Source: a virus
Strand: one strand, 5' to 3'
Length of the DNA stretch: 22,192 bases
Virus record (IMG/VR): IMGVR_UViG_3300033141_003741
Coordinates: 1 to 22,192 of that record
Below the pieces are notes generated by a model. It was given only the letters and a program-made list of their open reading frames with translations. It had not been told where the DNA came from and made no database searches. The translations under genes and the position numbers were made by a program. Shown here one piece after another: positions 6,001 to 21,369 of the stretch (within the stretch, counting starts at the first letter, position 1; every line of letters begins with the position of its first letter).

Positions 6001-6290
6001 CTTGACGAACTTTCAGAACTTGAGCTTGAACTAGATTCAGAACTACTGCTTGAAGAACTTTCAGAACTACTGCTTGATTCAGAACTACTGCTTGATGAAC
6101 TCTCAGAACTACTGCTTGAAGAACTTTCAGAGCTTGAAGAACTCTCAGAGCTTGAAGAACTTTCAGAGCTTGAGCTTGAACTAGATTCGGAACTACTGCT
6201 TGAAGAACTTTCAGAACTTGAAGAACTTTCAGAACTTGAAGAACTTTCAGAGCTTTCAGAGCTTGAAGAACTTTCGGAGCTTGAAGAACT
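1..6290 (-). repeat. Low-complexity Ser-Glu coding repeat tract
   Basis: The tract is built from 18-24 base units. On the plus strand they read as gaacttt/cag pieces alternating with gaactact, gcttgatgaa and gatgatgattc pieces; on the minus strand they read as Ser runs closed by Glu. Units vary by synonymous exchange among AGC, AGT, TCA, TCT, TCC and TCG and by whole-codon gain or loss. GC content looks higher than in the very AT-rich neighbours. The repeat keeps two or more frames open on both strands, so long antisense reading frames appear as by-products. Unit number is likely to vary between isolates by slippage or recombination. Confidence 0.9.
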
Positions 6291-6368
6291 ACTCCACCAT
6301 TCTACTGCATCAGTATCTTCAAATGTTACTGCACCAGTATCTTCAAATTTTACGTTTGGTTCTGCCAT
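1..6368 (-). CDS. Giant serine/glutamate-repeat protein (3' end beyond window)
   Basis: Read on the minus strand from ATG at 6368, this frame stays open to the window edge, giving at least 2,122 codons. The N-terminus starts MAEPNVKFEDTGAV and has no signal peptide. From residue about 26 onward nearly every codon is Ser (all six Ser codons are used), with Glu about every six to seven residues in SSSSSE-type units. Exceptions are three DTGAV-type modules and four KSSETF/KSSTTF landmarks. The SD is AAGG, six bases before ATG, and a TATAAATA element lies upstream. All other supported genes share this strand. Composition resembles bacterial serine-rich repeat glycoproteins and polyserine linkers, but those known adhesins carry signal peptides and anchors, and none is visible here. 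I infer a long, flexible, acidic, possibly glycosylated virion fibre or decoration protein. Function is not established, and the C-terminus is unseen. Confidence 0.85.
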   Translation of the reverse strand, partial: MAEPNVKFEDTGAVTFEDTDAVEWWSSSSSSESSSSSESSESSSSSESSSSSESSSSSSSESSSSSSSESSSSSESSSSSESSSSSSSESSSSSSSESSSSSESSSSSSSESSSSSSSESSSSSESSSSSESSSSSSSTSFTPDVVFKDTGAVEWTDTDDVVFEDISVTGDSSSSSESSSESSSSSSSESSSSSSSESSSSSSSESSSSSESSSSSSSESSSSSSSESSSSSSSESSSSSSSESSSSSSSESSSSSSSESSSSSSSESSSSSSSSESSSSSSSESSSSSSSESSSSSSSESSSSSSSESSSSSSSESSSSSSSESSSSSSSESSSSSSSESSSSSSSESSSSESSSSESSSSSSSESSSSSSSESSSSSSSESSSSSESSSSSSSESSSSSSSESSSSSESSSSSSSTSFTPDVVFKDTGAVEWTDTDDVVFEDISMTDESSSSSESSSESSSSESSSSESSSSSESSSSSSSESSSSSSSESSSSESSSSSSSESSSSSSSESSSSSSSESSSSSSSESSSSESSSSSSSESSSSSSSESSSSSSSESSSSSSSESSSSSSSESSSSSSSESSSSSESSSSSSSESSSSSSSESSSSSSSESSSSSSSESSSSSESSSSSSSESSSSSSSESSSSESSSSSSSESSSSESSSSSSSESSSSSESSSSSSSESSSSSSSESSSSSESSSSSSSESSSSSSSESSSSSESSSSSSSESSSSSSSESSSSSSSESSSSSSSESSSSSESSSSSSSESSSSSSSESSSSSSSESSSSSSSESSSSSESSSSSSSESSSSSSSESSSSSSSESSSSSSSESSSSSSSESSSSSSSESSSSSSSESSSSESSSSSSSESSSSSESSSSSSSESSSSSSSESSSSSSSESSSSSSSESSSSSSSSESSSSSSSESSSSSESSSSSSSESSSSSSSESSSSSSSESSSSSSSESSSSSESSSSESSSSSSSESSSSESSSSSSSESSSSSSSESSSSSSSESSSSSSSESSSSSSSESSSSSESSSSSSSESSSSSSSSESSSSSSSESSSSSSSESSSSSSSSESSSSSSSESSSSSKSSETFSSSSSESSSTSSASSESSSSSSESSSSSSSESSSSSSSESSSSSSSESSSSSESSSSSSSSESSSSSSSESSSSSSSESSSSSSSESSSSSSSSESSSSSSSESSSSSSSESSSSSSSESSSSSSSESSSSSSSESSSSSSSSESSSSSSSESSSSSSSESSSSSSSESSSSSSSESSSSSSSESSSSSSSESSSSSSSESSSSSSSSESSSSSSSESSSSSESSSSSSSESSSSSSSESSSSSSSESSSSSSSESSSSSSSSESSSSSSSESSSSSSSESSSSSSSESSSSSSSESSSSSSSSESSSSSSSESSSSSSSESSSSSSSESSSSSKSSETFSSSSSESSSTSSASSESSSSSSESSSSSSSESSSSSSSESSSSSSSESSSSSESSSSSSSSESSSSSSSKSSSSSSSESSSSSSSESSSSSSSSESSSSSSSESSSSSSSESSSSSSSESSSSSSSESSSSSSSESSSSSSSSESSSSSSSESSSSSSSESSSSSSSSESSSSSSSESSSSSESSSSSSSESSSSSSSESSSSSSSESSSSSSSESSSSSSSSESSSSSSSESSSSSSSESSSSSSSESSSSSSSESSSSSSSSESSSSSSSESSSSSSSESSSSSSSESSSSSKSSETFSSSSSESSSTSSASSESSSSSSESSSSSESSSSSSSESSSSSKSSSSSSSESSSSSSSESSSSSSSESSSSSSSESSSSSSSESSSSSSSSESSSSSSSSESSSSSSSESSSSSSSESSSSSSSESSSSSSSESSSSSSSESSSSSSSESSSSSSSSESSSSSSSESSSSSSSESSSSSSSESSSSSKSSTTFSSSSSESSSTSSASSESSSSSSESSSSSESSSSSSSESSSSSESSSSSESSSSSSSESSSSSSSESSSSSESSSSSSSESSSSSSSESSSSSSSESSSSSSSESSSSSSSESSSSSSSESSSSSSSESSSSSESSSSSSSESSSSSSSESSSSSESSSSSSSESSSSSSSESSSSSSSESSSSSSSESSSSSESSSSSSSES
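571..3130 (-). repeat. Four higher-order landmark copies (KSSETF/KSSTTF type)
   Basis: A roughly 60-base segment starting gcagagcttgttgagcta on the plus strand recurs at 571, 1150, 2050 and 3070. On the minus strand it encodes Ser runs containing KSSETF (KSSTTF in the copy at 571) followed by SSSTSSASS. These are the only places in the left 3.2 kb where Lys, Thr, Phe or Ala break the Ser/Glu pattern. Spacings are 579, 900 and 1020 bases, all multiples of three, so the copies are in frame and mark block duplications of the Ser-rich arm. Similar runs flank the copies at 2050 and 3070. Confidence 0.85.
5027..6368 (-). repeat. Three DTGAV-type acidic modules in the Ser-rich protein
   Basis: Three non-Ser segments are recognisable in the minus-strand frame. 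They lie at about 6291-6368 (the N-terminus, with FEDTGAVTFEDTDAVEWW), about 5855-5950 and about 5027-5122 (both with DTGAVEWTDTDDVVFEDIS). The last two are nearly identical at the DNA level, including their flanks, so they are recent duplicates; the first is diverged. Alternating hydrophobic and acidic residues with conserved Trp suggest small beta-rich units that could bind a partner or divalent metal, but I recognise no named domain. Tracts of about 0.3, 0.7 and 1.9 kb of Ser-Glu separate or follow them. Confidence 0.8.
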
Positions 6369-6475: not shown

Positions 6476-7261
6476 TTATTTTTTAGATTTTTGTCTAAGC
6501 TTTTCTATTTTCTCTTTGAATTGTCCTTTATATTTTTCACTTTTTGCACTAAGTTTTTTTGGGCGACCGGGATAATATTTTAATAATAATTTTATTAATC
6601 TATCGGTCATTGGTATTTCATCAATTCCATGTTTATCAAGAGCAAAGGTTTCCCATGCTAAACCTCTATGTGGATGAAAATGAGCAACTTTAATTGGTTT
6701 CTCTCCAAGTATAAATCTTTCCAAAAATCCAGAACAACCAACATTATAACTATAATCTAAGGTAGTTACACGATCTTTAAACTTTTTAGATTTGAAAACT
6801 TTATTTATTGTGGGTTCTTCTTTTTTATACTCATGTTTTGAAATAATTTTAACTATTTCGTTTACTATATCTCTACATTGTGGCGTCCAGAATATACTAC
6901 CACCATTGAATTTCGGACGACTATATTGCCCAGCAGCAACATCTTTCATTTCAGGTTGATCAAACCATACATTTTGCCAAGCATCAAGATCATGTGACCA
7001 TATAACATCATCAATCTGTTTTTTATCAAATAACCATTTAAGTCCAAACATTTTACTACCAGTAAGACAAAACTCATTAAGATCTATTTGATATGTTTTT
7101 ATGCCTCTATAATAGAAGTCAAAATTTGACAAAACCATTATATCCTTTGCTCTCCAACCTAGTTCTAAACTATTTTCTATTTGTGCTATTAATGCATTAA
7201 CAGTCATGCCTGGAGAAAACCTACCTTTTTTCTGCACATTTGCTACCATAAAATTTTTCAT
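6476..7261 (-). CDS. Putative GT-A type glycosyltransferase
   Basis: A 261-residue protein, last gene of the cassette. It shows a DLD-type metal/nucleotide-sugar motif in IWSHDLDAW (residues about 88-95), then FNGGSIFW (about 118-125) and a late KVAHFHPHRG, a layout typical of GT-A fold sugar transferases. The C-terminal 40 residues are rich in Lys and probably helical. ATG at 7261 has SD AAGGA six bases upstream; Met5 is a weaker alternative. A terminator follows the stop. Donor and acceptor sugars cannot be told. I did not match it to a named family, so the call rests on the DxD motif and the context. Confidence 0.55.
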   Translation of the reverse strand: MKNFMVANVQKKGRFSPGMTVNALIAQIENSLELGWRAKDIMVLSNFDFYYRGIKTYQIDLNEFCLTGSKMFGLKWLFDKKQIDDVIWSHDLDAWQNVWFDQPEMKDVAAGQYSRPKFNGGSIFWTPQCRDIVNEIVKIISKHEYKKEEPTINKVFKSKKFKDRVTTLDYSYNVGCSGFLERFILGEKPIKVAHFHPHRGLAWETFALDKHGIDEIPMTDRLIKLLLKYYPGRPKKLSAKSEKYKGQFKEKIEKLRQKSKK

Positions 7262-7280: not shown

Positions 7281-7859
7281 TTAACATATTATTCTTTTTG
7301 GTCTACCAAATATTTTCTTTGAAAGTTCAACAGCATCTTGACAATTTAATAGTTGTTCCCAAAATGATACACTTTGTATAAAAATTTCCCATCTAATTAA
7401 AATATCATCACTTTCTATTGAATAACTTTTATGTTCAATTCCAATTTTATCTAATATTTCTTTTCTATATTCCTCATCTACTAACCATTTATTAAATGAT
7501 ATAATAATAAACTCATTTGATTCTATAAATTCCTTAGCATATTGATAATATAAAGAATATAAGTATTTAATATCTAAGTATTTTTTACCATCTATAAGAT
7601 TAGCATATGGATCATTTTTATATGATGGATTATAATTATCAAGAGTAAATTTAGTATTTTCATCATAGTATATATAATCAGCCATCCAATTCCAAATATC
7701 TCTAAGTAATAATATATCATATCCATCATTAGATATTTTTATTTCTTGATTTTCAAAATTATACACATTACAATCATATTCTGATAACCAATCTACTATA
7801 TAATTACTACCGAATTTTTCTAAACTCCACAATCTTATATTATATTTTGATCCATTCAT
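7281..7859 (-). CDS. Sulfotransferase-like protein
   Basis: A 192-residue protein. The N-terminus carries LWSLEKFGSNYIVDWL, which resembles the 5'-phosphosulfate loop region seen in sulfotransferase-like phage proteins. Residues about 49-61 (ILLLRDIWNWMAD) fit the RDPxNW-type 3'-phosphate-binding motif of that superfamily. SFNKWLVDEEYR (about 121-132) also recurs in such proteins. If correct, it would move sulfate from PAPS to a sugar or other hydroxyl. The classic loop Lys/Arg pattern is degenerate, so loss of activity is possible. Its start overlaps the upstream GT2-like gene by 20 bases and has SD AAGGA, so the two are translationally coupled. Confidence 0.5.
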   Translation of the reverse strand: MNGSKYNIRLWSLEKFGSNYIVDWLSEYDCNVYNFENQEIKISNDGYDILLLRDIWNWMADYIYYDENTKFTLDNYNPSYKNDPYANLIDGKKYLDIKYLYSLYYQYAKEFIESNEFIIISFNKWLVDEEYRKEILDKIGIEHKSYSIESDDILIRWEIFIQSVSFWEQLLNCQDAVELSKKIFGRPKRIIC

Positions 7860-8730
7860 TAAAATTCTTCCTTAATGTTGCTCTTCCCCAACGATGGTTT
7901 TCATTAGATTTAAGATCACCAACAATTAAATTTATTATTGATATTAATTTATTTCGTGACTCTGTTATTTTCCAACTTCTTTTATAATTAGCTGATTGAT
8001 GTTTTTTGTGTCCCTCAACGGCTCTATAAAACTGACCACCAAACCACATCATTTTAAAACCCAACTGCCATGCTCTATACATTAAATCTTTATCATCATG
8101 ACCATATCCTTCCATGTTTTCATCATAACCACCAAGTAAATCAATAAACTCATTTTTATAAAAACCAAGACGACCTCTGGTCATACTTTTACCCTTTGTA
8201 AATATTGCTTTTTCTGGTTGATCATTAGCAAGTCTATTTAAAAATGTACAAAATCCTTTATTTGTAAATCCATCAGCATCTATATTAATAACTATATCAC
8301 CTGTAGCAACTTTAAAACAAATATTTCTTGAATGAGACATACTATAGTTCTTTACAGTACACTCTTGTATAAATATCATTTCACCAGATTCAATCATATT
8401 CATATAATTTTTTTTAATCCACATACCAGGATTATCCTCAGTACTATTATAATCAAGTATAACATATTCAACATTTGGATAATCAGAATTATCTTTTATA
8501 TTCTGTGGTAATGTTTGTTTTAAATCATCTAATCTATCCATAACATTTGTACAAAGAGAAATTTTATTATATTTAAACTCTTTATCAGATTCTAATTTAA
8601 TAAACTTTTTATCCCAAAAAGTAAAATTAGATCCATATTGTGACCACCATAATTTCTCTATATCTTTACAAAGATTTTTTTGATTAATTATAAAACTACC
8701 ATCTTTCAACTCTCTTAATCTATCATCCAT
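7840..8730 (-). CDS. GT2-like glycosyltransferase with galactosyltransferase C-terminal motif
   Basis: A 296-residue protein with a GT-A domain: strand and turn ISLCTNVMDRLDDLKQTLP (residues 57-75), VILDYNSTED (90-99) at the nucleotide site, and the metal-binding DAD in VINIDADG (147-154). It then shows GGYDENMEGYGHDDKDLMYR (200-219), the signature of the galactosyltransferase/GalNAc-transferase C-terminal domain (Glyco_transf_7C type). It probably adds a hexose or HexNAc from a UDP-sugar to a glycan or to a protein hydroxyl. SD AGGAGA lies upstream. The gene overlaps the sulfotransferase-like gene. Of the cassette's enzymes this looks the closest to known protein-linked glycan transferases, but the acceptor is unknown. 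Confidence 0.75.
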   Translation of the reverse strand: MDDRLRELKDGSFIINQKNLCKDIEKLWWSQYGSNFTFWDKKFIKLESDKEFKYNKISLCTNVMDRLDDLKQTLPQNIKDNSDYPNVEYVILDYNSTEDNPGMWIKKNYMNMIESGEMIFIQECTVKNYSMSHSRNICFKVATGDIVINIDADGFTNKGFCTFLNRLANDQPEKAIFTKGKSMTRGRLGFYKNEFIDLLGGYDENMEGYGHDDKDLMYRAWQLGFKMMWFGGQFYRAVEGHKKHQSANYKRSWKITESRNKLISIINLIVGDLKSNENHRWGRATLRKNFNEWIKI

Positions 8731-8743
8731 TAATTTTTCTCTC

Positions 8744-9358
8744 CTAGAGTCTAGTTAAATCTTTTTTCATAACCATTGTTAAACCACAATATGCTGCAGT
8801 ATATGGCCAAGTAAAAGTAAATAAATCTTTATTATTTTCTAAATAATGTCTTATCTTATATGAATCACATGTCCTGCCAGCACTTATTTTCTTTTCATAA
8901 TAATGTTTCTGTGGATATGTGTCATGTAAAAATATCATAGCATTTTGTGGTAAAATATCCATAAAATAATCAACTTCATATTTAATAGCATCATAATAAT
9001 GATTACCATCTATGAAAACAATCGCTGGTAAGTATTCTGAATTATTATTTTTCAATAATGTTTTCTTTAATTTTTCTATAAAAACAGTTGATATACATTG
9101 ATGGATATGATGTCTTTTATAATTCAGTTTATGTTTATCAATAGTATCTTTAACTCTTTTAATAATTTTATCACTACGATCACAGCTCATTAAAACTCTA
9201 TCATATTTAATTGCATGTTTTAAAAGCATTATAGTTGAATTACCCATACCAATTTCTATAATAGATCCTTTAACATTAGATAAAATAATTGGTGCTAAAC
9301 TATCTACTACAGTCCATAATGATTCCATTTCAAAATTTCTAAGATATTCGTTACCCAT
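8744..9358 (-). CDS. Class I SAM-dependent methyltransferase (Methyltransf_24-like)
   Basis: A 204-residue protein with IIEIGMGNST (residues about 33-42) as the SAM-binding motif I, IVFIDGNHYYDA in the middle and MIFLHDTYPQ further on. These are the acidic and metal-site pattern of small O-methyltransferases and sugar methyltransferases. It is a clear paralogue of the product of 12120-12677: both share FIDGxH, FxHDTYP and FTWPY...GLxMxMKK endings. Start ATG shares a TAATG overlap with the stop of the gene before it, so the two are coupled. It probably methylates a sugar hydroxyl of the glycan built by neighbouring transferases; substrate is not shown. Confidence 0.7.
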   Translation of the reverse strand: MGNEYLRNFEMESLWTVVDSLAPIILSNVKGSIIEIGMGNSTIMLLKHAIKYDRVLMSCDRSDKIIKRVKDTIDKHKLNYKRHHIHQCISTVFIEKLKKTLLKNNNSEYLPAIVFIDGNHYYDAIKYEVDYFMDILPQNAMIFLHDTYPQKHYYEKKISAGRTCDSYKIRHYLENNKDLFTFTWPYTAAYCGLTMVMKKDLTRL

Positions 9359-9945
9359 TATCTTCTTTCCATAACTATAATTGTATTTTTAAACCATCTC
9401 AATGTACTATAGTATCTTAATACCTTTGACCATCTCTTTTTCACAAATAGACCTCGTTCTCTAAATTTCTTGATGACATATTTATTAGACCTCTCATTGA
9501 AGTGTCCTTTTCCACCCTGACCAGGAATTGCCCAGCTTAGTACTATATTTTTGCTAGTAAATTTTGCCACATTATCAATGAATATGTCTTCACATTTTTC
9601 TGGAATATGTTCACCCACCTCAAGACATATAACTAAATCATATTCTGTATCAACACCACTAATGGGTTGTGATAAATCTAAACTATAAATATTATCATAG
9701 ATACCTAATTCTTTTATGCCTTCTGTTCCTTCATATCCATCTACTTTCCAGTCATATGATTCAAATATTTTACAATATCTACCTGTGCCACATCCAAGAT
9801 CGGCAACTCTTTTTGGATTTTTGAACATATACTTTATAGCACCAGCTAGAACAGGATCATAACTATGATGTCTTTTTGCCATATCTATATTCCATATACC
9901 ACTTGTTTCATCTATATATTTTTTCATTATATTTCTATATACCAT
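9358..9945 (-). CDS. Class I SAM-dependent methyltransferase (Methyltransf_11/25-like)
   Basis: With the start chosen here the protein has 195 residues. VADLGCGTGRY (residues about 47-57) is a textbook SAM motif I, DGYEGTEG follows as the acidic strand-2 region, and DLVICLEVGEHIPE is the strand-4 region of small-molecule methyltransferases. Three ATGs compete. 9987 would overlap the upstream gene by 61 bases. 9945 has SD GAAGG six bases upstream and is preferred. 9927 sits in a TAATG overlap but lacks an SD. The C-terminus is basic. It probably methylates a sugar or glycan end; the acceptor is unknown. Confidence 0.72.
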   Translation of the reverse strand: MVYRNIMKKYIDETSGIWNIDMAKRHHSYDPVLAGAIKYMFKNPKRVADLGCGTGRYCKIFESYDWKVDGYEGTEGIKELGIYDNIYSLDLSQPISGVDTEYDLVICLEVGEHIPEKCEDIFIDNVAKFTSKNIVLSWAIPGQGGKGHFNERSNKYVIKKFRERGLFVKKRWSKVLRYYSTLRWFKNTIIVMERR

Positions 9946-10442
9946 ACCCATCCTTCTAGGGTTTTGATATTTTCTTCTCCAAAGCATTCATCCACAGCTA
10001 TTTTAACTTCTGGACAACTTGGATGTGTATAATCATGACCAGATATAATTCCACCTTTTTTTATTAATGGTTTCCAACATTTTATATCATTTTTAACACT
10101 TTCTTTATCATGCGAAGCGTCAATATAAACCATATCAAACGGTTTCCAATTTGGATGTTCTGATCTTTCTTTAAAAAGTACAGAAGCTTGCTCTGATGTC
10201 ATGTTAAGTAATTTAAAACTTTTAAAAAACATCATCAATCTACTAGCATAAAAAAATTTTGAATTTTGTCGAAAATGATCCACACCCCAATATTCATCCA
10301 TTTTATCATCATATTTTTTTAATATTTTTTTCATTCCACGACATTTCCATAAACCTATTTCTGCATATTTCTTTACAGAATATTCTTCTATAATTGAACA
10401 AATAGAATTTGCAGTAACACTAACGAATCTCTTTCTTTTCAT
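9927..10442 (-). CDS. Class I methyltransferase, Methyltransf_24-like (paralogue of 20608-21183)
   Basis: A 171-residue protein with YAEIGLWKCRG (residues about 26-36) at the SAM site, FDMVYIDASHDKES (102-115) and GGIISGHDYTHP (130-141). The Asp/His pattern is that of metal-dependent O-methyltransferases. It is a close paralogue of the product encoded 10 kb upstream at 20608-21183: MMFFKSF, EYWG(V/I)D, GGIISGHDY and ENIKTL are shared, but this copy lacks a stretch of about 15-20 residues after EYWG. SD GAGG lies upstream and only three bases separate it from the previous stop. Substrate unknown; the cassette suggests a sugar. Confidence 0.7.
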   Translation of the reverse strand: MKRKRFVSVTANSICSIIEEYSVKKYAEIGLWKCRGMKKILKKYDDKMDEYWGVDHFRQNSKFFYASRLMMFFKSFKLLNMTSEQASVLFKERSEHPNWKPFDMVYIDASHDKESVKNDIKCWKPLIKKGGIISGHDYTHPSCPEVKIAVDECFGEENIKTLEGWVWYIEI

Positions 10443-10445
10443 TTA

Positions 10446-11096
10446 TTATACCTCAAATACCATTATATAATCTATAAGATATCTTCTAGCTTTTATATTT
10501 TTTAAAGCATTTACTAATCTCAGAGTTTTCATTCCACTGTATTCTATGTTACATTCTTTAAATCTATGTATCCAGTATGATTTATACTGCGGATTAAGAT
10601 GATACATACTACGTTTTGGTGATGTGCTCATTATTATTAATCTACTAGATGCATTTATTAGATTTTCCATATATATTGATACTTCATCTGGTAATAAATG
10701 TTCTGCTACTTCAATAGATAAAACACAGTCCCATTTACCACAATCTATTAATTCACCAACATCACCATATTTTATATGATCAATAATATTTTTTGGAATA
10801 TATTCTTTTCCTATTTCAAATCCCTTTTCAAAACCCAGAACTTTTTTAGCACCACCTTGAAGAGCACCAACTAAATAAGGACCAATGCCGCATCCAAAAT
10901 CCACCATAGATTTTATTTCAAAAAGTTCTGTAATAATTTTACCATAATAATCAAACGGTCTTATAGTCCTTTTTTCCCAAAATGCTTTATTATATAGACC
11001 ATCGAAATCATCTATATATTGTATTTTCCTCTGAACATCAATGAGTTCTTTTTGATATTCTCTCCACATATACGATTTATTTGGTGTCCATTTCAT
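10446..11096 (-). CDS. Class I SAM-dependent methyltransferase
   Basis: A 216-residue protein. MVDFGCGIGPYLVGAL (residues 64-79) is motif I, KKVLGFEKG (about 84-92) supplies the acidic residue that binds the SAM ribose, and WDCVLSIEVAEHLLPDE is motif IV with its following helix. The last third (MSTSPKRSMYHLNPQ, then FKECNIEYSG) resembles the substrate side of Methyltransf_11/23 type enzymes acting on lipids, quinones or sugars. The N-terminal 55 residues are helical and not typical of the core fold. SD AGGA lies upstream. It lies between the FkbM gene and another methyltransferase, four and three bases away, so one transcript is likely. Confidence 0.72.
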   Translation of the reverse strand: MKWTPNKSYMWREYQKELIDVQRKIQYIDDFDGLYNKAFWEKRTIRPFDYYGKIITELFEIKSMVDFGCGIGPYLVGALQGGAKKVLGFEKGFEIGKEYIPKNIIDHIKYGDVGELIDCGKWDCVLSIEVAEHLLPDEVSIYMENLINASSRLIIMSTSPKRSMYHLNPQYKSYWIHRFKECNIEYSGMKTLRLVNALKNIKARRYLIDYIMVFEV

Positions 11097-11100
11097 ATTT

Positions 11101-11808
11101 TTATATCCTATATTTACAAACCCATTCTTTACTTACTAGCATAAACTCCATAGTTCCACCTTCTGGTAATTTATCAACTGGTATATAAACACTTCTTTTA
11201 TATTTTGTTCCTTTATCCTTCCATACAGATAATCTTAATTCAAAATCATCTTTAAACTCATCTATCCAATCATTCCATTCCTGTATTTCACCACCAAAAG
11301 GAGTATGTATTTCTGCCATAAACTGAACACAACCCTTGACTATATTAATAGATTCATCATTAAGAAGATGTCTTTCTCCACCTTCTGTATCTATTTTTAT
11401 TATATAAGATTCTAAATCATTCAGTTTATATGTATCAAACATTTGTTTTAAAGTTAAACTATCCACAAAATATTCTGGTTTCTTTGGCAACCATTTATTC
11501 TCATCTTCTCTTATAAATCTATGATAACCATTATTTTGTCTTCTTATAAAACACATTGGATTTCCATCACCTATTGCTATATTATGACTTTCAATTCTCC
11601 AGTATCTCATATTTCTTTCTAGTATATCATAAGTCTCTTTACATGGTTCAAATCCTATAATTCTCGCAGCTGGAAACAATAATCTACCCATTATAGAAAC
11701 CGAACCAACATTTGCACCAATATCTATCAATCCATCTATACAATATGGTGATATTTTTAAAAATTTTCTCAAATCATATGTATCATAATAATGTATTTTT
11801 CCTGCCAT
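11101..11808 (-). CDS. FkbM family methyltransferase
   Basis: A 235-residue protein with the three FkbM hallmarks in order: DIGANVGS (residues 29-36) for SAM binding, IIGFEPCKETY (50-60), and IIKIDTEGGERHLL (136-149). It also shows the FMAEIH strand near residue 164. The family O-methylates sugars, polyketides and surface glycans, and genes of this family are frequent in polysaccharide and glycan loci. A role in capping or decorating the glycan made by this cassette is an inference. SD AAGGGAG precedes the ATG. The N-terminus starts directly with the fold, so it is a minimal single-domain enzyme. Confidence 0.82.
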   Translation of the reverse strand: MAGKIHYYDTYDLRKFLKISPYCIDGLIDIGANVGSVSIMGRLLFPAARIIGFEPCKETYDILERNMRYWRIESHNIAIGDGNPMCFIRRQNNGYHRFIREDENKWLPKKPEYFVDSLTLKQMFDTYKLNDLESYIIKIDTEGGERHLLNDESINIVKGCVQFMAEIHTPFGGEIQEWNDWIDEFKDDFELRLSVWKDKGTKYKRSVYIPVDKLPEGGTMEFMLVSKEWVCKYRI

Positions 11809-12119: not shown

Positions 12120-12677
12120 TTACCTCTTATAAAACGGTCTATTTTTTTCTTTTTTCATAATCATTGATAATCCACTATTTATAGCACTATAAGGCCATGT
12201 AAATATTTGTAAATCATCTCTTTTTTCTAACCCTTGCCTAACTTTATAAATATTACCAGAAACTTTATTATTTTCTGAAATCCAGCTTTCATCAGGTGGG
12301 TATGTATCATGTATGAATATAACACCATTCTTACTTAAATTTTCAAAAATAAATTCAAATTCTTTCATAACAGTTTCATGAATATGTTCTCCATCAATAA
12401 AAGCAATAGATATAGATATATCTGAAAGGGTTTTTATAAAATCTAAAGATTTTCCTACATAAGAATTTAAATTTTTAAGTTTTTTATCGGCTTGATTAAT
12501 TTTTTTCCAATTTATATCACATACATGATGTATACGATTATAATGAATAGCATACTTATTCAATATTTTTGTAGATCTTCCGAATCCAATTTCAAATATA
12601 TCACCTTCAGAATTACTCAAAATAAGATCACTAAGTAAATCCATAACTGCCCAGTCTTTATTAAATTCTCTTAACAT
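12120..12677 (-). CDS. Class I SAM-dependent methyltransferase (paralogue of 8744-9358)
   Basis: A 185-residue protein with DIFEIGFGRSTKIL (residues about 26-39) at the SAM site, ISIAFIDGEHIHE in the middle and GVIFIHDTYPPDE later. It ends FTWPYSAINSGLSMIMKK, matching the paralogue at 8744-9358. The duplication plus divergence suggests two different hydroxyl positions or sugars as substrates. The start is the first ATG after the previous stop. The SD AAGGAG lies about 14 bases away, further than usual, so this gene may be translated by coupling. An exact TATAAATA inside its 3' end (12176-12183) is probably chance. Confidence 0.68.
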   Translation of the reverse strand: MLREFNKDWAVMDLLSDLILSNSEGDIFEIGFGRSTKILNKYAIHYNRIHHVCDINWKKINQADKKLKNLNSYVGKSLDFIKTLSDISISIAFIDGEHIHETVMKEFEFIFENLSKNGVIFIHDTYPPDESWISENNKVSGNIYKVRQGLEKRDDLQIFTWPYSAINSGLSMIMKKEKNRPFYKR

Positions 12678-12680
12678 ATT

Positions 12681-13508
12681 TTAAAATGTTTCTCCTTCTG
12701 GGATTTTTATTTTTTTAGGGCCTCCTGTGTATTTAGAATGGCCATATTTTATTTCTTCAACTACAGTCAAAAATTTTTGTGCTGTGTCCATAAGATAAAG
12801 AGTTTCTCCAGAAAATATTCTTTTTCCAGTATCTCTATTCATAATTTCAGCATTTTCAACTAAATCACATCTACCATGTGCTATTTTAATTTTACCATAC
12901 AAATATCCAGGATGTGTTATAACACAATTATATTCCATAGGCAAAACCGAATATCTAATATCACTTTCATATAACAACATTCTTAAATATGGTTCATCTG
13001 TAAAGTATCTTCTTCTATTTTTTAATTCTTCAATCATATCATTTATAAACTTTATCATTTTTTCATTTTTCTTCCATATAAACATACCACCTGCTAATTC
13101 TGGATAAGATTTTGGAACTCTGCCTATTTTTCTAGAAAAATAATGTGGCGACATTGGGATGGCCATATCAAAATGATCCATCAATGGAAATATCTCAGAA
13201 AAATCATCACATACATAAGTATCAGCATCCAAATGTAAAGTTATATCATATGGTGATGTAGATAAATACTCCCACTTTTTTTGCCACATTAAATGATGTG
13301 TTTCAAGTTGATCAACTTTTACAACATTATCAAAAACTTCATCAAATTCAACATTCAAATTTGTATAAAGAGTAATACCTAAATTTGGGACATGTTTTCT
13401 AACACTCTTTGCTGATATTACTGCTAGTTCATATTGACTTTTTATTGCATGACCATCACTTCTTCCTTTCTTTTTATTTACTGCAATATAAATAACACCT
13501 ATATTCAT
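12681..13508 (-). CDS. Putative GT8-like glycosyltransferase
   Basis: A 275-residue protein. The N-terminal strand NIGVIYIAVN leads into a GT-A fold. ITLHLDADTYVCDD (residues about 89-102) holds the DxD metal and nucleotide-sugar motif, and ELAGGMFIWKKNEKM plus PYLRMLLYESDIRYSVLP fit the acceptor side of GT8-like or nucleotide-diphospho-sugar transferases. A late IAHGR may supply the His that contacts the donor phosphates. The reaction would be transfer of a hexose from a UDP-sugar; linkage is unknown. SD AAGGAG is well placed before ATG. It lies nine bases after the CgeB-like gene and four before a methyltransferase. Confidence 0.68.
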   Translation of the reverse strand: MNIGVIYIAVNKKKGRSDGHAIKSQYELAVISAKSVRKHVPNLGITLYTNLNVEFDEVFDNVVKVDQLETHHLMWQKKWEYLSTSPYDITLHLDADTYVCDDFSEIFPLMDHFDMAIPMSPHYFSRKIGRVPKSYPELAGGMFIWKKNEKMIKFINDMIEELKNRRRYFTDEPYLRMLLYESDIRYSVLPMEYNCVITHPGYLYGKIKIAHGRCDLVENAEIMNRDTGKRIFSGETLYLMDTAQKFLTVVEEIKYGHSKYTGGPKKIKIPEGETF

Positions 13509-13517
13509 ATTTTCTCC

Positions 13518-14450
13518 TTATATATGTTTATTAACAATATCAATAAATTTATTGACTCTATTAACATTATTATAATTTTCTCTAACAAGATCCATTCCAT
13601 TTTGTGCTATTTCTTCACGTTCATCTTCATTTTCTAAATAATAATAAATTTTATCTTTTAAATCATCTAATGAATCAAAAGTAACTAAATGATATCCATC
13701 AATATATCCAAATTTTTTTAAATCATCACAATTATCAGTTAAAAGAAAAGTTCCACATGCTAATGTTTCTGGTGTTCTTGGAGTTATAAATTTAAATTTA
13801 AAATTACAATTTATTACTATTTTTGATTTGTTTGTCAAATCAACAGCTTCTTCAAAATATATTCTTGTGATCCAACTAATTACATCCATTTTCCATATCA
13901 TTCTTGTTATTTTTCTTCTTAAAGGATATATTTTATCAGATGCTCCCCAAAATGTAGAAACATCTATTTCTTTTGGAATATCACTCTTTTTTCTATATAT
14001 ATTTGTATCTACTGCAAAGGGTAATATGTATTGATATTTTCCTACATTATTCTTTCTTAAAAAATCTCTTGTTGATGTAGAATATCCAAATGATATATCA
14101 AATGCATGGTGGTTAAAATGTCTATAATAATTTGATAAATTTCTACCATTCTCATAGAAATCACCAGCTATATGTATCTTTAAAATATTCTTAATATCAT
14201 TAAAATCTTGTATTTTATTTAAACCATTTGTAAGTATAACATCTGGTTTATAATATTTTTCAATTATTTCTTGTAATGTTATTTCACCATCCCATTCATA
14301 TCCATATTTTTCACCATAACCCCATCCATAAAAAAAAGAATCTGTACTTCTAGCTAGTTCTTCTCTCCAAAGTTCTTCATACCAGCTTCCTTTATAACCA
14401 TGACCATATCCATTATATTTTCTTCTGTTACCATAAACTAAAATTTTCAT
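13518..14450 (-). CDS. CgeB-like glycosyltransferase (GT-B fold)
   Basis: A 310-residue protein. It starts with the Rossmann strand MKILVYGNRR. DVILTNGLNK (residues about 70-79), IAGDFYE (94-100), LPFAVDTNIYR (143-153) and FITPRTPETLACGTFLLTDN (221-240) follow the order seen in the CgeB/spore-maturation type GT4-like enzymes (Glyco_trans_1_2 domain). The Glu of PETLACG is the expected donor-binding residue. It ends with the usual helix (EEIAQNGMDLVRENY). ATG overlaps the previous stop as ATGA with SD AGGA, so it is coupled to the DUF5662 gene. CgeB-like enzymes are common in phages and decorate surfaces or proteins; this acceptor is unknown. Confidence 0.75.
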   Translation of the reverse strand: MKILVYGNRRKYNGYGHGYKGSWYEELWREELARSTDSFFYGWGYGEKYGYEWDGEITLQEIIEKYYKPDVILTNGLNKIQDFNDIKNILKIHIAGDFYENGRNLSNYYRHFNHHAFDISFGYSTSTRDFLRKNNVGKYQYILPFAVDTNIYRKKSDIPKEIDVSTFWGASDKIYPLRRKITRMIWKMDVISWITRIYFEEAVDLTNKSKIVINCNFKFKFITPRTPETLACGTFLLTDNCDDLKKFGYIDGYHLVTFDSLDDLKDKIYYYLENEDEREEIAQNGMDLVRENYNNVNRVNKFIDIVNKHI

Positions 14451-14917
14451 ATATTATCCTGTGTACTTAATATAGAAATTCTTGTTATTGTTCGCTTATG
14501 AAGAATCATTTCTTCGTGATTTTCATTATAATATTTTTGCCATGTTCCACCAAATTTTCGACTCATTCCACGCCAATCGGCTATCATTTGTTTTACATAT
14601 TTTCTGGGCATGGGAATGGGAAGTTGTGCATTAGAAGATCTTGTTACACTTACCCAATAATTCCAATGATGTTTGTTTCGTTTTTGGTGATGATTCCAAC
14701 CCAATTGAAAATCTTTATTATTTTCAGTTCCTTTGTCGTATTTCTTGGCTTTATTTGTATCATAAAAATATTTAGCATAAGGTATAAACTCTGACGGAAG
14801 GAACTTTGACAGATCATGAGTTATTGCATGAATTGGCATTCCCATTTTAAGACATTCAATGCCAACATTTTTTTTATGTTCAAGTACATACAATAGATAT
14901 TTTAAATATTTTTTCAT
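14447..14917 (-). CDS. DUF5662 family protein, HD-hydrolase-like
   Basis: A 156-residue protein matching the phage and bacterial DUF5662 pattern as I remember it: ITHDLSKFLPSEFIPYAKYF (residues 32-51), QLGWNHHQKRNKHHWNYW (71-88) and MPRKYVKQMIADWRGMSRKF (103-122). H14, H34-D35, H76/H77 and D114 could form the metal site of an HD-type phosphohydrolase; that assignment is my inference. No activity is established for the family. SD AAGGGG lies upstream. It sits between two glycosyltransferase genes and overlaps the second, so a link to nucleotide or nucleotide-sugar chemistry is conceivable. Confidence 0.75.
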   Translation of the reverse strand: MKKYLKYLLYVLEHKKNVGIECLKMGMPIHAITHDLSKFLPSEFIPYAKYFYDTNKAKKYDKGTENNKDFQLGWNHHQKRNKHHWNYWVSVTRSSNAQLPIPMPRKYVKQMIADWRGMSRKFGGTWQKYYNENHEEMILHKRTITRISILSTQDNI

Positions 14918-14931
14918 TTACTTCCCCTTTT

Positions 14932-17508
14932 CTATAATACTAATTGCTCTATAACTTCAATCCATTTTTTTGGATCTAAATTCTTTTTTGCCCATTCTTT
15001 TGCATACATTCCCATTTTATGACGATAATCCTCTTTTCGTTGTAGTAATTTTATTGCATAAAGAAAACCATCATAATCAATACAATGAAATCCAGAATCT
15101 CCATGAACTATTCTATCTTTAGTACCATCTCTTGGCTCGCCTAAACATGGAATACCAGCAGCAAGTGCTTCCGCCATTACTCTTGGATACTGATCTCTCC
15201 AATGATTAGATGTTCTATAAAGAAATATATGACCTTGCTTTAAAAAGTCACCAACATCCATTTCATTCCATTTGTAAAAAATCATTCTTGGCTCTTTCTC
15301 AAATGCCTTAACTAATTCTTTATGAGCGACCATAAATGCAAATTTTGTTTTCTTTGTATCTTTTAGTAAACGAGAATAAAACTTAACATCATTTTCTTTT
15401 ATTATATTATGTTGCCATAAATGTTGTTTATCACCACCGCTTTCAGTTTCAGTTGTTACATATTTTCTATAATCCGGAAGACATGTTTTTATTATCATTA
15501 GATCCTGATCTTTCTCTTTTTTCTGTGGGGCAACATCAAGAAATTTTTCAAGATTAATAGCACCAAACATTACTACAAGTTGTGTATCATCAAAACCTAT
15601 TGCATCTCGTATCCATTCATCGCGTTTCTCTGTATTTTGAAAAATAACAGCTCTAAGTTTTTTAGATTTTGCTAGCCAATTGCATTTTGTTAATGATCCA
15701 TTTGCAAAGTTTATACCTATTATGACTGAAGAGCTTTTATTCACTATAGGTTCTGCCGTTTTAGCGAAATCCCATACACAATCATTAGCATAAAATAGAA
15801 GTGGTAAACCCTCTTTCATATTTTCAAGCATACCTTCTTTATATGAATGTGGCTCTGTTTCTATATCTTTATAATTTTCATGAACAGTTGACCACGGATA
15901 CAAGTTTACCTTCCAACCAGATTTTCTTAATAGAGTGGAAATCATTGCTAAGCTTTGTTCCCCACCACCCTTAGAGTTAAGATTACCAACAATATTGATT
16001 TCTTTATTTGTATGATTGATTATTGATGGTATCGTTATATTCTTTACTGGCTTGATATATTTTTTTAAGCTAGTTCCTTGATTTTCATATTTATATATAT
16101 CACCATCATAATATTTTTCTATTGCACGAATAACATCTTGTGATGTAATATTATCCATACATTCAGCAACATGTTTATCATCAACTTTAACTGGTTTCTT
16201 ACAAAGATTCTTATTATGTTTCGGATCTTTTTGAAGTGGTGTTACTCTGGCTTTCCAACATCCACCATTATCACAACAAGAATAAATACCATTTGAATGA
16301 AGAATCTGATGATTGGTATATCCACTCCACATATGAGGTTCTCTGCCACCAAATATAGCAACACATGGTTTACGAGCTTTTCTATACTTTGGTGGCATTG
16401 CAGCTGCAAGATGCATTAAAAAACTTGGGCCACTTACACACCCTTCAGCATGATAAAGAAGTGGCACAAGTGATCTTACACTTTTATTAAATTTATCTGT
16501 TAAATCAATAACATTACTAAGATTTTCTATTAAATGATCACTTCTACCTATAGTAACAAATTTTATTTTTCCTTCAAAATGATCTATAACTTCTTGAAAC
16601 TTTCTCCAATCCCATATTTTACAAGTACAATCTCTTTTACCACCTGGGCCAATTACCCAATACTTTTCAAAACCATAAATATCTTTTATTAAATTATATG
16701 ATTTCTCTTCTTTAGTAAGATGAATATCACCACGTTGTCTAGCAAATTCTTTACAAATTTGATGATATTTTTCACGAAAGGATATAAATGGTTCTATAGC
16801 ATTTTCTGCATTCTTTTTTGTATCACCAAGTGATGGATCACCAATTCTACCATTTGCAAATATAGCAGTAAGTTCTCCTATACTCATTGGCAATGGTTCA
16901 TGAAAATCAGCAATAGCAATCATATCAAAAAGAAACATTGATGTAAAATGCATATGAGAGTTATTGATATTACCAATCATTGGATACCCAACTTTATAAT
17001 ACTCAACACCCTCATCGTCTTTTTTAATACTTCTATCAATATAAGGATTGTTTTCCCAAAGCATTTTTTGATTACTATCTACATTTATAACTATATCTGG
17101 AAAAAGTAATTTAAAATCACGAATGCCTGATGTAAACATCAGCCCATCGCCTAATGCTCTATGATGCCCAAATATTATTTTTCGTGGATTGTCTATTGTT
17201 CGTTTTATTACTTTAGGTGTGATTGTTTTGGTAGGTTCTGTTTGTGTCTGTGTTATTGTTTTGGTAGGTTCTGTTTGTGTCTGTGTTATTATTTCTCCAT
17301 ATCTATCATATATGGATTGAAGCATTATTTTTTTATTTTCATTGTTATCTGGTAATATGTGGTGGATATGGTTGTCTTGAAATAAAACACTCATTAATAA
17401 TGCTTTTGGATCTTTTTTAAGAATATTATTATTACTAGATAACGTCTTTATTTCTTGCTCTAACATTTTATTTAACTTATACATTTCTTTAGTAACATTT
17501 TTTATCAT
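14932..17508 (-). CDS. Two-domain glycosyltransferase (GT9 heptosyltransferase-like plus GT4)
   Basis: An 858-residue fusion. Residues 1-70 are helical, and 73-96 carry an 11-residue tandem repeat (ITQTQTEPTKT twice). From about 109, IIFGHHRALGDGLMFTSGIR, LLFPDIVINVD and NNPYIDRS mark a GT9 domain. It continues through VIGPGGKRDCTC and CVSGPSFLMHLAAAM, ending near 470. A second domain from about 495 begins INIVGNLNSKGGGEQSLAMI and ends with RVMAEALAAGIPCLGEPRDG, in which the Glu before ALAAG (residue 780) is the GT4 donor-binding Glu. One chain could thus add two successive sugars. A Cys-rich patch (YSCCDNGGCWKAR) sits late in the GT9 part. SD AGG lies upstream. It is the largest cassette enzyme and the first in transcription order. 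Confidence 0.8.
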   Translation of the reverse strand: MIKNVTKEMYKLNKMLEQEIKTLSSNNNILKKDPKALLMSVLFQDNHIHHILPDNNENKKIMLQSIYDRYGEIITQTQTEPTKTITQTQTEPTKTITPKVIKRTIDNPRKIIFGHHRALGDGLMFTSGIRDFKLLFPDIVINVDSNQKMLWENNPYIDRSIKKDDEGVEYYKVGYPMIGNINNSHMHFTSMFLFDMIAIADFHEPLPMSIGELTAIFANGRIGDPSLGDTKKNAENAIEPFISFREKYHQICKEFARQRGDIHLTKEEKSYNLIKDIYGFEKYWVIGPGGKRDCTCKIWDWRKFQEVIDHFEGKIKFVTIGRSDHLIENLSNVIDLTDKFNKSVRSLVPLLYHAEGCVSGPSFLMHLAAAMPPKYRKARKPCVAIFGGREPHMWSGYTNHQILHSNGIYSCCDNGGCWKARVTPLQKDPKHNKNLCKKPVKVDDKHVAECMDNITSQDVIRAIEKYYDGDIYKYENQGTSLKKYIKPVKNITIPSIINHTNKEINIVGNLNSKGGGEQSLAMISTLLRKSGWKVNLYPWSTVHENYKDIETEPHSYKEGMLENMKEGLPLLFYANDCVWDFAKTAEPIVNKSSSVIIGINFANGSLTKCNWLAKSKKLRAVIFQNTEKRDEWIRDAIGFDDTQLVVMFGAINLEKFLDVAPQKKEKDQDLMIIKTCLPDYRKYVTTETESGGDKQHLWQHNIIKENDVKFYSRLLKDTKKTKFAFMVAHKELVKAFEKEPRMIFYKWNEMDVGDFLKQGHIFLYRTSNHWRDQYPRVMAEALAAGIPCLGEPRDGTKDRIVHGDSGFHCIDYDGFLYAIKLLQRKEDYRHKMGMYAKEWAKKNLDPKKWIEVIEQLVL
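17222..17290 (-). repeat. Tandem 33-base repeat in the GT9-GT4 gene
   Basis: Two identical 33-base copies lie head to tail at 17222-17254 and 17255-17287, with the first three bases of a third copy after them. On the coding strand each gives the 11 residues ITQTQTEPTKT, forming a Thr/Gln/Pro linker between the N-terminal helices and the GT9 domain. Perfect identity suggests recent duplication or slippage. The Thr-rich linker could itself be an O-glycosylation target, but this is speculation. Confidence 0.9.
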
Positions 17509-19984: not shown

Positions 19985-20611
19985 TTATTTCAAACCGTAT
20001 ATATTTTCTTTCAATACATCTTCATATTTTCTATTAACTAGAAAATATGATTTACATTTAAATGTTATTTCTACTTTACCATAATATGCTTTCTTTAGAT
20101 TTTTATCTGTATATTGTAAAAAAATATCATTAAATTTTTTCTTCATTTTATCTATTTTAATATATTTACCACCCATACTTATATTATATATTTGATCAAA
20201 AAACATATATATGTCTATTACATGGGGATGGTAAACATACTTATAATTACCTATAGGAAAAAACATATATACATTACCATATACATGTTCTAGTTGCCAA
20301 TAATCACTGGATGTAAAAACACCCTCACTTCTAGGTTTCCAACCAAAATGTTTTTTGAACGACATATTCATATATGTATGTAATTCTTCTGGCATATTAC
20401 GAGGTCTTCTATTTGTTCGTGGTTTGATTTTTTTAATATCTTTTATTACACTTTCTGTAGCTCTATATATCCAACTTTCTGGTTTGACTTTTTTCATTTC
20501 TTTTATAAAAGGCATGCAGTCTTTCTTTAGTTTTTCGGCAATTAATTCAACTTCACCATCATCATATAAAAAACTCAAATCGACTTCATTTATATATTGT
20601 TTGAACTTCAT
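19985..20611 (-). CDS. Putative ADP-ribosyltransferase-fold protein with capsid-targeting N-terminus
   Basis: A 208-residue protein from ATG at 20611 (SD GGAG; ATGA overlap with the previous stop). ATG at 20629 would lengthen the overlap and is rejected. The N-terminus MKFKQYINE resembles the capsid-targeting sequence of T4 internal proteins (MKTYQEFIAE), with INE as a possible prohead-protease site. The body has WIYRATES (about 47-54), RPRNMPEELH, HFGWKPRSEGVFTSSDYW (about 88-105) and YGNVYMFFPIGNYKYVYHP. This order of Arg, Ser-rich strand and aromatic strands recalls a family of phage proteins thought to have an ADP-ribosyltransferase-like fold, but I cannot confirm catalytic residues. If right, it could be packaged and injected, as T4 Alt is. 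Both parts are inference. Confidence 0.45.
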   Translation of the reverse strand: MKFKQYINEVDLSFLYDDGEVELIAEKLKKDCMPFIKEMKKVKPESWIYRATESVIKDIKKIKPRTNRRPRNMPEELHTYMNMSFKKHFGWKPRSEGVFTSSDYWQLEHVYGNVYMFFPIGNYKYVYHPHVIDIYMFFDQIYNISMGGKYIKIDKMKKKFNDIFLQYTDKNLKKAYYGKVEITFKCKSYFLVNRKYEDVLKENIYGLK

Positions 20612-21183
20612 TGTATCTCCATATACCATACATATCCTGGCAATGTTTTAATATTCTCTTTACCTAATAATTCATTAACTGCTGATTCTGTCTCTGGATG
20701 TCTGCCTTGGCCATAATCATGTCCAGATATAATTCCACCTGGTTTTATCAGACCAATCCATAACTCTATATCTTTCTTTACAGAATACTTATCATGAGCA
20801 GCATCAATAAATACCATATCAAATGGTCGCCAGTCAGGAAACGATTTTCTTTTCCCAAACAAATCTGATGCCTCTCTAGATGACATTTTAAGCACTCTAA
20901 AGCTTTTAAAAAACATCATAAAATGACAGGCCCATCCATATAAATCATCCCATTCTTTTTGATATAATCCTCTTTCTTTGCTCCAATCTTGTTCAAGAAA
21001 AAAATCAATGCCCCAGTATTCATCAAGGATATTATCATATTTTCTTAAAAGATCTTTAACAGCTCTACATTTATAGAGTCCTATTTCTGCCATTTTCTTT
21101 ACAGAATATTTTTCTATAAGCACCGCCATGGAGCCGTGAGTTGTTGATCTAAATTTTTTTCTAATTGATTCGTATTTATCCAT
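20608..21183 (-). CDS. Class I methyltransferase, Methyltransf_24-like (paralogue of 9927-10442)
   Basis: A 191-residue protein with MAEIGLYKCRAVKDLL (residues 31-46) at the SAM site, FDMVFIDAAHDKYS (121-134) and PGGIISGHDYGQG (148-160). It is a close paralogue of the cassette enzyme at 9927-10442 and is longer by an insert around residues 62-85. It lies outside the main cassette, in front of the head genes, and is first after a terminator and a late-promoter motif. No clear SD precedes the ATG at 21183, so translation from a short leader is likely. The downstream gene starts in its stop codon (ATGA). Substrate unknown. Confidence 0.7.
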   Translation of the reverse strand: MDKYESIRKKFRSTTHGSMAVLIEKYSVKKMAEIGLYKCRAVKDLLRKYDNILDEYWGIDFFLEQDWSKERGLYQKEWDDLYGWACHFMMFFKSFRVLKMSSREASDLFGKRKSFPDWRPFDMVFIDAAHDKYSVKKDIELWIGLIKPGGIISGHDYGQGRHPETESAVNELLGKENIKTLPGYVWYMEIQ

Positions 21184-21258: not shown

Positions 21259-21369
21259 TTATTTATCTAATATATCTTTCATTAATTTATCAAACCATTT
21301 TGTTGTTCCCATAATACAACCAAGAATAAAAACAACAACACATAATACTATTGATATAATAATTATCAT
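21259..21369 (-). CDS. Small single-pass membrane protein, 36 residues
   Basis: ATG at 21369 overlaps the stop of the SpoVR gene as ATGA, and the frame runs 36 codons to TAA at 21259, just before the terminator. Residues 2-20 (IIIISIVLCVVVFILGCIM) form one hydrophobic segment. The rest (GTTKWFDKLMKDILDK) is a short amphipathic, net basic tail, so the protein probably sits in the inner membrane with the tail in the cytoplasm. No known family was recognised. The exact overlap, the membrane segment and the terminator placement argue for a real gene and for translation coupled to SpoVR. Confidence 0.65.
   Translation of the reverse strand: MIIIISIVLCVVVFILGCIMGTTKWFDKLMKDILDK

Follow-up and report, generated by a model that had tools for sequence, protein, structure and literature searches.

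To our knowledge, glycosylation of virion proteins by phage enzymes has been documented in only a few systems. Here we describe a viral gene in which two glycosyltransferases (GTs), one of family GT9 and one of family GT4, are joined in a single chain. The gene occupies positions 14932–17508 on the minus strand of IMG/VR record IMGVR_UViG_3300033141_003741, a 22 kb (22,192-nucleotide) stretch of DNA which was analysed over its whole length and is referred to below as the window. Of the known systems, TibC comes closest in function: this GT9-type enzyme puts heptose on serines of repetitive surface proteins and requires a four-Cys iron finger for its activity (PMC4358343, in excerpt). In bacterial serine-rich-repeat systems, a priming pair of enzymes initiates the glycan, which other enzymes encoded in the cluster then lengthen (PMC6973325, in excerpt). 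The chlorovirus protein A111/114R has several glycosyltransferase domains in one chain and builds virion-protein glycans (PMC7826918, in excerpt), so that viruses seem able to combine such enzymes in a single polypeptide for the glycans of their own virions. In mycobacteriophages, glycans were reported on the C-termini of capsid and tail-tube proteins (Freeman et al. 2023, via an excerpt of PMC12619734).

Like the serine-rich-repeat clusters of PMC6973325, the window and 14 of 16 long contigs with the fusion encode a very serine-rich protein near several GTs. They differ in being phage-borne and, as far as scanned, in the priming enzymes: the GtfA/GtfB family was absent from the Pfam and NCBIfam matches of the window proteins scanned, the other contigs not having been searched for it. 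A111/114R, which is likened to the fusion by its excerpted description only, comes from a eukaryotic virus, has three domains and makes N-glycans. As in the mycobacteriophages, the glycans proposed here would be on phage virion proteins; the passages of PMC12619734 that deal with them mention neither a fusion nor a serine-rich repeat protein. The likeliest reading, which we hold with middling confidence and by analogy with these systems, is that the fusion would be a bifunctional enzyme starting and extending O-glycans on the phage's own serine-rich virion protein.

Two glycosyltransferase halves in one chain

A first-pass annotation, made from the sequence alone, had read the gene as a heptosyltransferase-type (GT9) domain joined to a GT4 domain. 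This was borne out, as both Pfam families scored above their cut-offs within the 858-aa open reading frame (ORF) (GT9, PF01075; GT4, PF00534), and structure prediction modelled each half as its named GT family. The gene is laid out as follows:

14932..17508, minus strand: GT9-GT4 fusion glycosyltransferase, 858 aa, ATG start, with 31 related contigs
17290..17508, minus strand: N-terminal helical stretch (residues 1–73), in the closest relatives only, with low-confidence helices in the model
17222..17290, minus strand: Thr-rich linker repeat before GT9, a 33-base tandem with two copies (17222–17287) plus 3 bases
16099..17184, minus strand: GT9 domain (residues 109–470), GT-B fold, from Pfam, model and an alignment of 22
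14935..16005, minus strand: GT4 domain (residues 502–858), GT-B fold, from Pfam, model and an alignment of 22

In the full protein, PF01075 matched residues 268–410 with 28.4 bits (cut-off 22), and 19 of 22 relatives matched this profile at E ≤ 0.01. Because the full-length model was poor over the GT9 half, this half was folded by itself from the 22-row alignment, with a mean pLDDT of 88.3. The top 8 VIA rows of a fold search with this model were all GT9 enzymes (Z 17.7–22.5), with 3tov at Z 22.5, heptosyltransferase II at 20.3, TibC at 20.0 and WaaC at up to 18.2. The relation came from this search, since GT9 profiles gave only sub-significant matches against PDB sequences. G120-D121 and K297 were invariant in all 22 aligned GT9 halves, as were C411, C417 and C450, and C436 was found in 21. 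The NCBIfam model RfaQ scored weakly for 10 of 16 GT9 rows (best E 1.1e-5), and none of the seven NCBIfam families which the GT9 rows matched was a model for autotransporter heptosyltransferases.

With TibC/AAH (PDB 4RAP, 4RB4) the GT9 half shares a GT9-type fold (Z 20.0, 266 residues, 21% identity) and, going by the excerpted description and by chain order rather than superposition, an Asp early in the chain, a Lys in the donor lobe and, towards the C-terminus, a similar set of four Cys. Because the Cys spacing differs and the N-terminal beta-barrel is absent (in the window a low-confidence helical stretch is found there), the phage enzyme is not classed as TibC-type. Also, no GT4 domain is described for TibC in the excerpt. 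With WaaC and WaaF (GT9; PDB 2H1H, 1PSW) the phage half shares the GT-B fold (Z 17.7–20.3), the Gly-Asp motif and the donor-lobe Lys and His; it differs from them in its fusion to GT4 and in the replacement of an acid on the donor side. The Asp of the donor-lobe D-S/T-G motif defines the lipopolysaccharide (LPS) heptosyltransferase family. Residue 361, which aligned with this Asp in the DSG motif of E. coli heptosyltransferase II (1psw), was occupied by P, V, L or I in all 22 halves; the alignment was weak (E 0.14) but anchored on the invariant His.

The first-pass annotation had taken the GT9 family as a hint at a heptose-like donor, and this suggestion was unsupported. Besides the missing Asp, gmhA was not found in the 16 long fusion contigs, and genes of PF16363 type (GDP-mannose dehydratase/epimerase) were present above cut-off in five of them, in four within ~2 kb of the GT4 half. 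Because of these three observations a non-heptose donor appears at least as likely, the evidence being indirect because the host may supply donors. A search for PF01467 nucleotidyltransferases gave one match in the 16 contigs and was too general to use. Upstream of the fusion in contig L023 (261–9587) there are four genes of one epimerase/dehydratase cluster, two of which were scanned, and one of these two is a GDP-mannose dehydratase (399 bits). Genes for a sugar-nucleotide dehydrogenase, for a radical SAM protein and for a methyltransferase accompany them, suggesting that this phage may make its own sugar nucleotide.

In the GT4 half, PF00534 matched residues 730–839 with 35.7 bits (cut-off 26.4), and all 22 relatives matched the profile at E ≤ 0.01. 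GGGE (the motif being read as GGGEQ), D679, R681, K682, D772 and E780 were identical in the 22 aligned halves. We take the invariant D772(x)7E780 to be an E(x)7E-type motif in which the first acid is Asp instead of Glu. Within the full-length model this half reached Z 26.3 to both BshA and HepE. It resembles the GT4 enzymes BshA, HepE, PglA and PimA in fold (best Z of each 24.2–26.3) and in donor-lobe sequence, and differs from them in identity (12–16%), in its fusion to GT9 and in its own invariant DxRK and GGGEQ motifs. Since both halves match and model as their families and keep catalytic-type residues, it is reasonable to suppose, as the first-pass annotation did, that one chain would carry out two ordered transfers.

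The 33-base repeat is exact (17222–17254 equals 17255–17287, with the period running on to 17290), which is far beyond chance, and it encodes two 11-residue Thr-rich units at about residues 74–96. A duplicated Thr/Pro linker had been noticed before; the perfect duplication stood, and its position was corrected, as the repeat lies before GT9 and not between the two enzymes. It connects the N-terminal helical stretch with the GT9 domain, and the GT9-GT4 junction is a separate, variable and non-repetitive linker (about residues 471–501). The idea that the repeat varies in number found no support: there were two copies in the window and in each of three near-identical contigs, and it was absent from the other 16 alignment rows examined. 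The proteins of L020, L023, L030, L031 and L037 start at the GT9 domain, without the N-terminal stretch. Because at this place L029 carries another short repeat rich in Thr and Pro (TPDVP, twice), low-complexity linkers before GT9 may arise repeatedly.

Recurrence and origin of the fusion

Four scans of IMG/VR, with the whole protein, its alignment and the halves, gave 31 distinct contigs besides the window, several of which were near-copies of one another or of the window. Both halves were present in 28 of the 31; the other three were cut by the contig end, L063 and L073 having one half each and L028 only the start of the GT4 half. Except for two contigs cut in this way, no contig of the subfamily with a lone half was found in per-half pattern scans. 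Because 28 further contigs carry both halves, the fusion is real and recurrent and not an assembly accident. When the window was compared with three relatives that were 84–86% alike to it (two of them close to each other), dN/dS was 0.06–0.09 for GT9 and ~0.05 for GT4, whereas it was close to neutral (0.64–0.84) for the Thr/Pro linker. This difference indicates that both halves are constrained and the repeat-bearing linker hardly at all.

The fusion was not found in one genome each of 84,980 bacterial and archaeal species by two peptide-pattern scans, which may miss distant relatives. Neither the fusion nor one stand-alone GT9 had a match in the phages collection, and the fusion and 16 GT9 rows were likewise without a match in PHROGs. 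One unannotated faecal phage record was matched by a stand-alone GT4 and one by the GT2 gene located near the fusion (see below). No enzyme of this GT9-GT4 kind was found in titles and opening abstracts of the open-access literature, among the matches listed. The fusion is a domain architecture of known enzyme families which was not found described in the open-access literature searched.

A scan with the same GT2 revealed unfused GT9 and GT4 genes in other phages. They were directly adjacent in L107, L109, L111, L112/L113, L115 and L119, one gene apart in L108, and had four genes between them in L104. A scan for stand-alone GT9 genes was also made, and among the best 80 of 123 relatives (duplicates included) a GT4 was located within five genes downstream in 12, in 8 of them next door; 65 had no such GT4, and in 3 the GT9 was uncalled. 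The separate and fused GT4s matched in hhalign at 99.3% (E 4e-20, 127 donor-lobe columns), compared with only 13.6% for the fused GT4 and the other GT4 near it. Because relatives of the GT9 occur in other phages, in some of them next to a related GT4 encoded by a gene of its own, the fusion looks derived. In a GT9 tree of 66 sequences (22 fused and 44 stand-alone under 420 residues), 21 of the 22 fused GT9s formed one clade with support 100/100, which suggests one main fusion event. The exception was L060 (4717–7089), whose fused GT9 was located elsewhere on a very long branch and whose GT4 half is a member of the family; its GT9 may have been replaced or have diverged strongly, a possible domain replacement.

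GT9 domains of other phages were joined to other partners (L214, L221, L237, L272, L276, L279). For example, the partner was a PF13578 methyltransferase domain in L279 and was weakly GT2/fringe-like, below cut-off, in L276. In L214, L221 and L237 it was an unassigned domain whose RDxFN motif gives it a sulfotransferase-like look, with no Pfam match in L221 and L237. GT9 seems, from these sequences, to be a fusion hub in phage glycan islands.

Serine-rich ORFs and the glycan island

The candidate acceptor is encoded at the end of the window:

3..6368, minus strand: giant serine-rich repeat ORF, proposed acceptor, open at the window end

This ORF has 1751 Ser in 2122 codons (82% Ser), 936 of them TCN and 815 AGY. 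The ESSSSSSS unit occurs 195 times and is spelled by 112 different codon strings, in which TCN and AGY are swapped at the same positions, which argues that serine itself is selected. Using at least 50% Ser over 60 residues as the criterion, we found that a serine-rich ORF occurred at 11 of 21 fusion loci, 17 of 64 stand-alone GT9 loci and 0 of 76 terminase controls (Fisher, fusion vs terminase control, 4e-9). When only loci of at least 10 kb were considered, the values were 11 of 20 for the fusion and 0 of 27 for the control (Fisher, 1e-5). The controls were the best 80 of at least 594 terminase relatives, 76 (723 kb) after near-copy removal; they were used instead of a narrower scan with the window protein alone, which gave only near relatives. 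The stand-alone GT9 loci were 64 kept of 80 after near-copy removal. In the 16 long fusion contigs, 29 of 30 serine-rich ORFs were on the strand of the fusion. Serine-rich ORFs were also present in the fetched stretches of L104, L109 and L112/L113, where GT9 and GT4 are unfused. Many of the serine-rich ORFs overall have a part at one end that is not serine-rich; when six such end pieces were scanned, four matched nothing, one resembled laminin G and one gave a match below threshold. The serine-rich ORF of the window is probably linked to the fusion.

L019 (3300033148_007469) is nearly identical to the window except that a frameshift in the repeats breaks its serine-rich ORF in two (21141–22364 and the next ORF), either by an assembly error or by real variation.

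Several points weigh against a glycan-bearing serine-rich virion protein made by the fusion. Serine-rich ORFs were absent from 2 of the 16 long fusion contigs and from the fetched stretches of five phages with unfused GT9 and GT4 (L107, L108, L111, L115, L119), and some of the 30 ORFs are pieces of one frameshifted gene (G016). Their density was less than twofold higher near the fusion (16 in 356 kb) than further off (14 in 583 kb); as this difference is only mild, serine-rich ORFs seem to go with the type of phage rather than with a place right beside the fusion. The 21 fusion loci were picked from the 31 contigs by leaving out near-copies and the short or cut L004, L028, L063 and L073, and all contigs are metagenomic fragments. 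Besides, ecology could explain part of the association, because the terminase controls come from other phages and possibly from other habitats. That the serine-rich ORFs are virion proteins is inferred from gene position and flanking domains. Finally, the GT4 half was modelled only inside the full-length job, which had a mean pLDDT of 56.3 and was better over GT4.

The fusion heads an island on the same strand. Downstream of it are three more glycosyltransferase genes (another GT4, a GT2 and, below cut-off, a probable GT-A), six methyltransferase genes and four genes, DUF5662 among them, that match no enzyme family, and the serine-rich ORF ends the block:

14447..14917, minus strand: DUF5662 gene (121 bits), directly after the fusion
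13518..14450, minus strand: separate GT4-like glycosyltransferase (PF13524)
12681..13508, minus strand: probable GT-A type glycosyltransferase (PF03407, below cut-off)
12120..12677, minus strand: methyltransferase (PF13578)
11101..11808, minus strand: FkbM-family methyltransferase (family scan)
10446..11096, minus strand: methyltransferase-like (weak PF13489, below cut-off)
9927..10442, minus strand: methyltransferase (PF13578)
9358..9987, minus strand: methyltransferase (PF13489)
8744..9358, minus strand: methyltransferase (PF13578)
7840..8730, minus strand: GT2-type glycosyltransferase, conserved in the islands
7281..7859, minus strand: island protein without family match, related genes in 3 other loci
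6476..7261, minus strand: island protein with an invariant DLDxWQN motif, without family match, related genes in 9 other loci
20608..21183, minus strand: further methyltransferase (PF13578), beyond the terminase on the opposite side

The DLDxWQN protein is possibly GT-A like. In BLAST comparisons of the loci, the DUF5662 gene was restricted to near-copies of the window. Several methyltransferases of the island are from the same families, and the genes at 9358–9987 and 9927–10442 overlap by 61 bases.

The window terminase (18409–19956) matched 2,541 phage records, all at less than 60% identity (34.7–37.5% among the matches listed, many of them from Synechococcus and Escherichia phages), and a head-tail adaptor (neck) gene is located near it. 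These two genes support a phage origin. The island adjoins the terminase and neck genes in the window and large structural-looking ORFs in other contigs. A SpoVR-family gene (21366–22190, minus strand) adjoins the terminase region.

Proposed function and alternative explanations

By analogy with TibC, the serine-rich-repeat systems and A111/114R, GT9 would prime, GT4 would extend, and the island would elongate and methylate. In this scheme, in which the activity, donors, transfer order, acceptor and virion location of the serine-rich protein are predicted, the fusion would be a soluble bifunctional glycosyltransferase of an uncultured T4-like phage. Its GT9 half would attach or extend the first sugar and its GT4 half would add the next one; the other island glycosyltransferases may then lengthen the chain and the methyltransferases cap it. 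The acceptor would most likely be a structural protein of the phage itself, the prime candidate being the product of the serine-rich repeat ORF, and a mucin-like virion fibre bearing methylated O-glycans would result. The statistics given above would be consistent with serine-rich phage proteins that carry a self-made glycan coat. More tentatively, these phages may possess a whole mucin-like system, in which giant serine-rich proteins form virion fibres, GT9-GT4 primes and extends O-glycans on those very serines, methyltransferases cap a self-made coat, and the pairing of GT9 with GT4 is itself selected, as neighbouring genes, the fusion and L060 with its diverged GT9 might indicate.

The island could instead serve to remodel the surface of the infected host by altering a glycan there (LPS, capsule or teichoic acid), for instance so that other phages are blocked; GT9 and GT4 would then act on acceptors that are lipid-linked or LPS. 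Surface polysaccharides are common products of GT4 enzymes, GT9 relatives of known role include LPS core heptosyltransferases, 10 of 16 GT9 rows score weakly against RfaQ, and nucleotide-sugar genes are found within some islands. This explanation is less favoured and we think it unlikely: the island adjoins terminase and neck genes or structural-looking ORFs, all 22 halves lack the acid which LPS heptosyltransferases have on the donor side, and a GtrA-type flippase was not found in the 16 fusion contigs, other flippases not having been searched for.

It is also conceivable that one half is catalytic and the other serves as a substrate-holding partner, so that the enzyme adds just one sugar. 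GtfA and GtfB divide the work in this way in the serine-rich-repeat systems of bacteria, the former transferring and the latter binding the acceptor (PMC6973325, in excerpt), and the GT9 half of the fusion is without the DSG-type Asp. With catalytic-type residues invariant in both halves and both halves strongly constrained, such a division of labour appears quite unlikely.

T4-like phages use GT-B enzymes on hydroxymethylcytosine. The enzymes of the island might glycosylate hydroxymethylated phage DNA against restriction, as in T4-type and hypermodified phages, and the excerpt of PMC12619734 references a paper on virus-encoded glycosyltransferases that hypermodify DNA. No gene of thymidylate synthase/dCMP hydroxymethylase type was found above cut-off in the 16 contigs (one was sub-threshold, in G014), and Tet_JBP was found in 0 of 16 by a search without a positive control; because the contigs are incomplete, these missing genes are weak evidence. 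DNA glycosylation is likewise less favoured and seems very improbable. An assembly chimera or decaying gene, as metagenomic contigs and the frameshifted serine-rich ORF of L019 might suggest, can be dismissed, since 28 further contigs carry both halves in open frames under strong purifying selection and independent contigs rule out a chimera for the fusion.

A bifunctional enzyme acting on the phage's own serine-rich protein thus remains the likeliest reading. The recurrence of the fusion together with an obvious candidate acceptor makes initiation, transfer order and acceptor choice testable in vitro. Such an enzyme would widen the known range of GT9, which covers the glycosylation of LPS and autotransporters, to include virus proteins. 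If this reading is true, the serine-rich ORFs of these phages would encode glycoproteins, which would bear on adsorption, stability and recognition.

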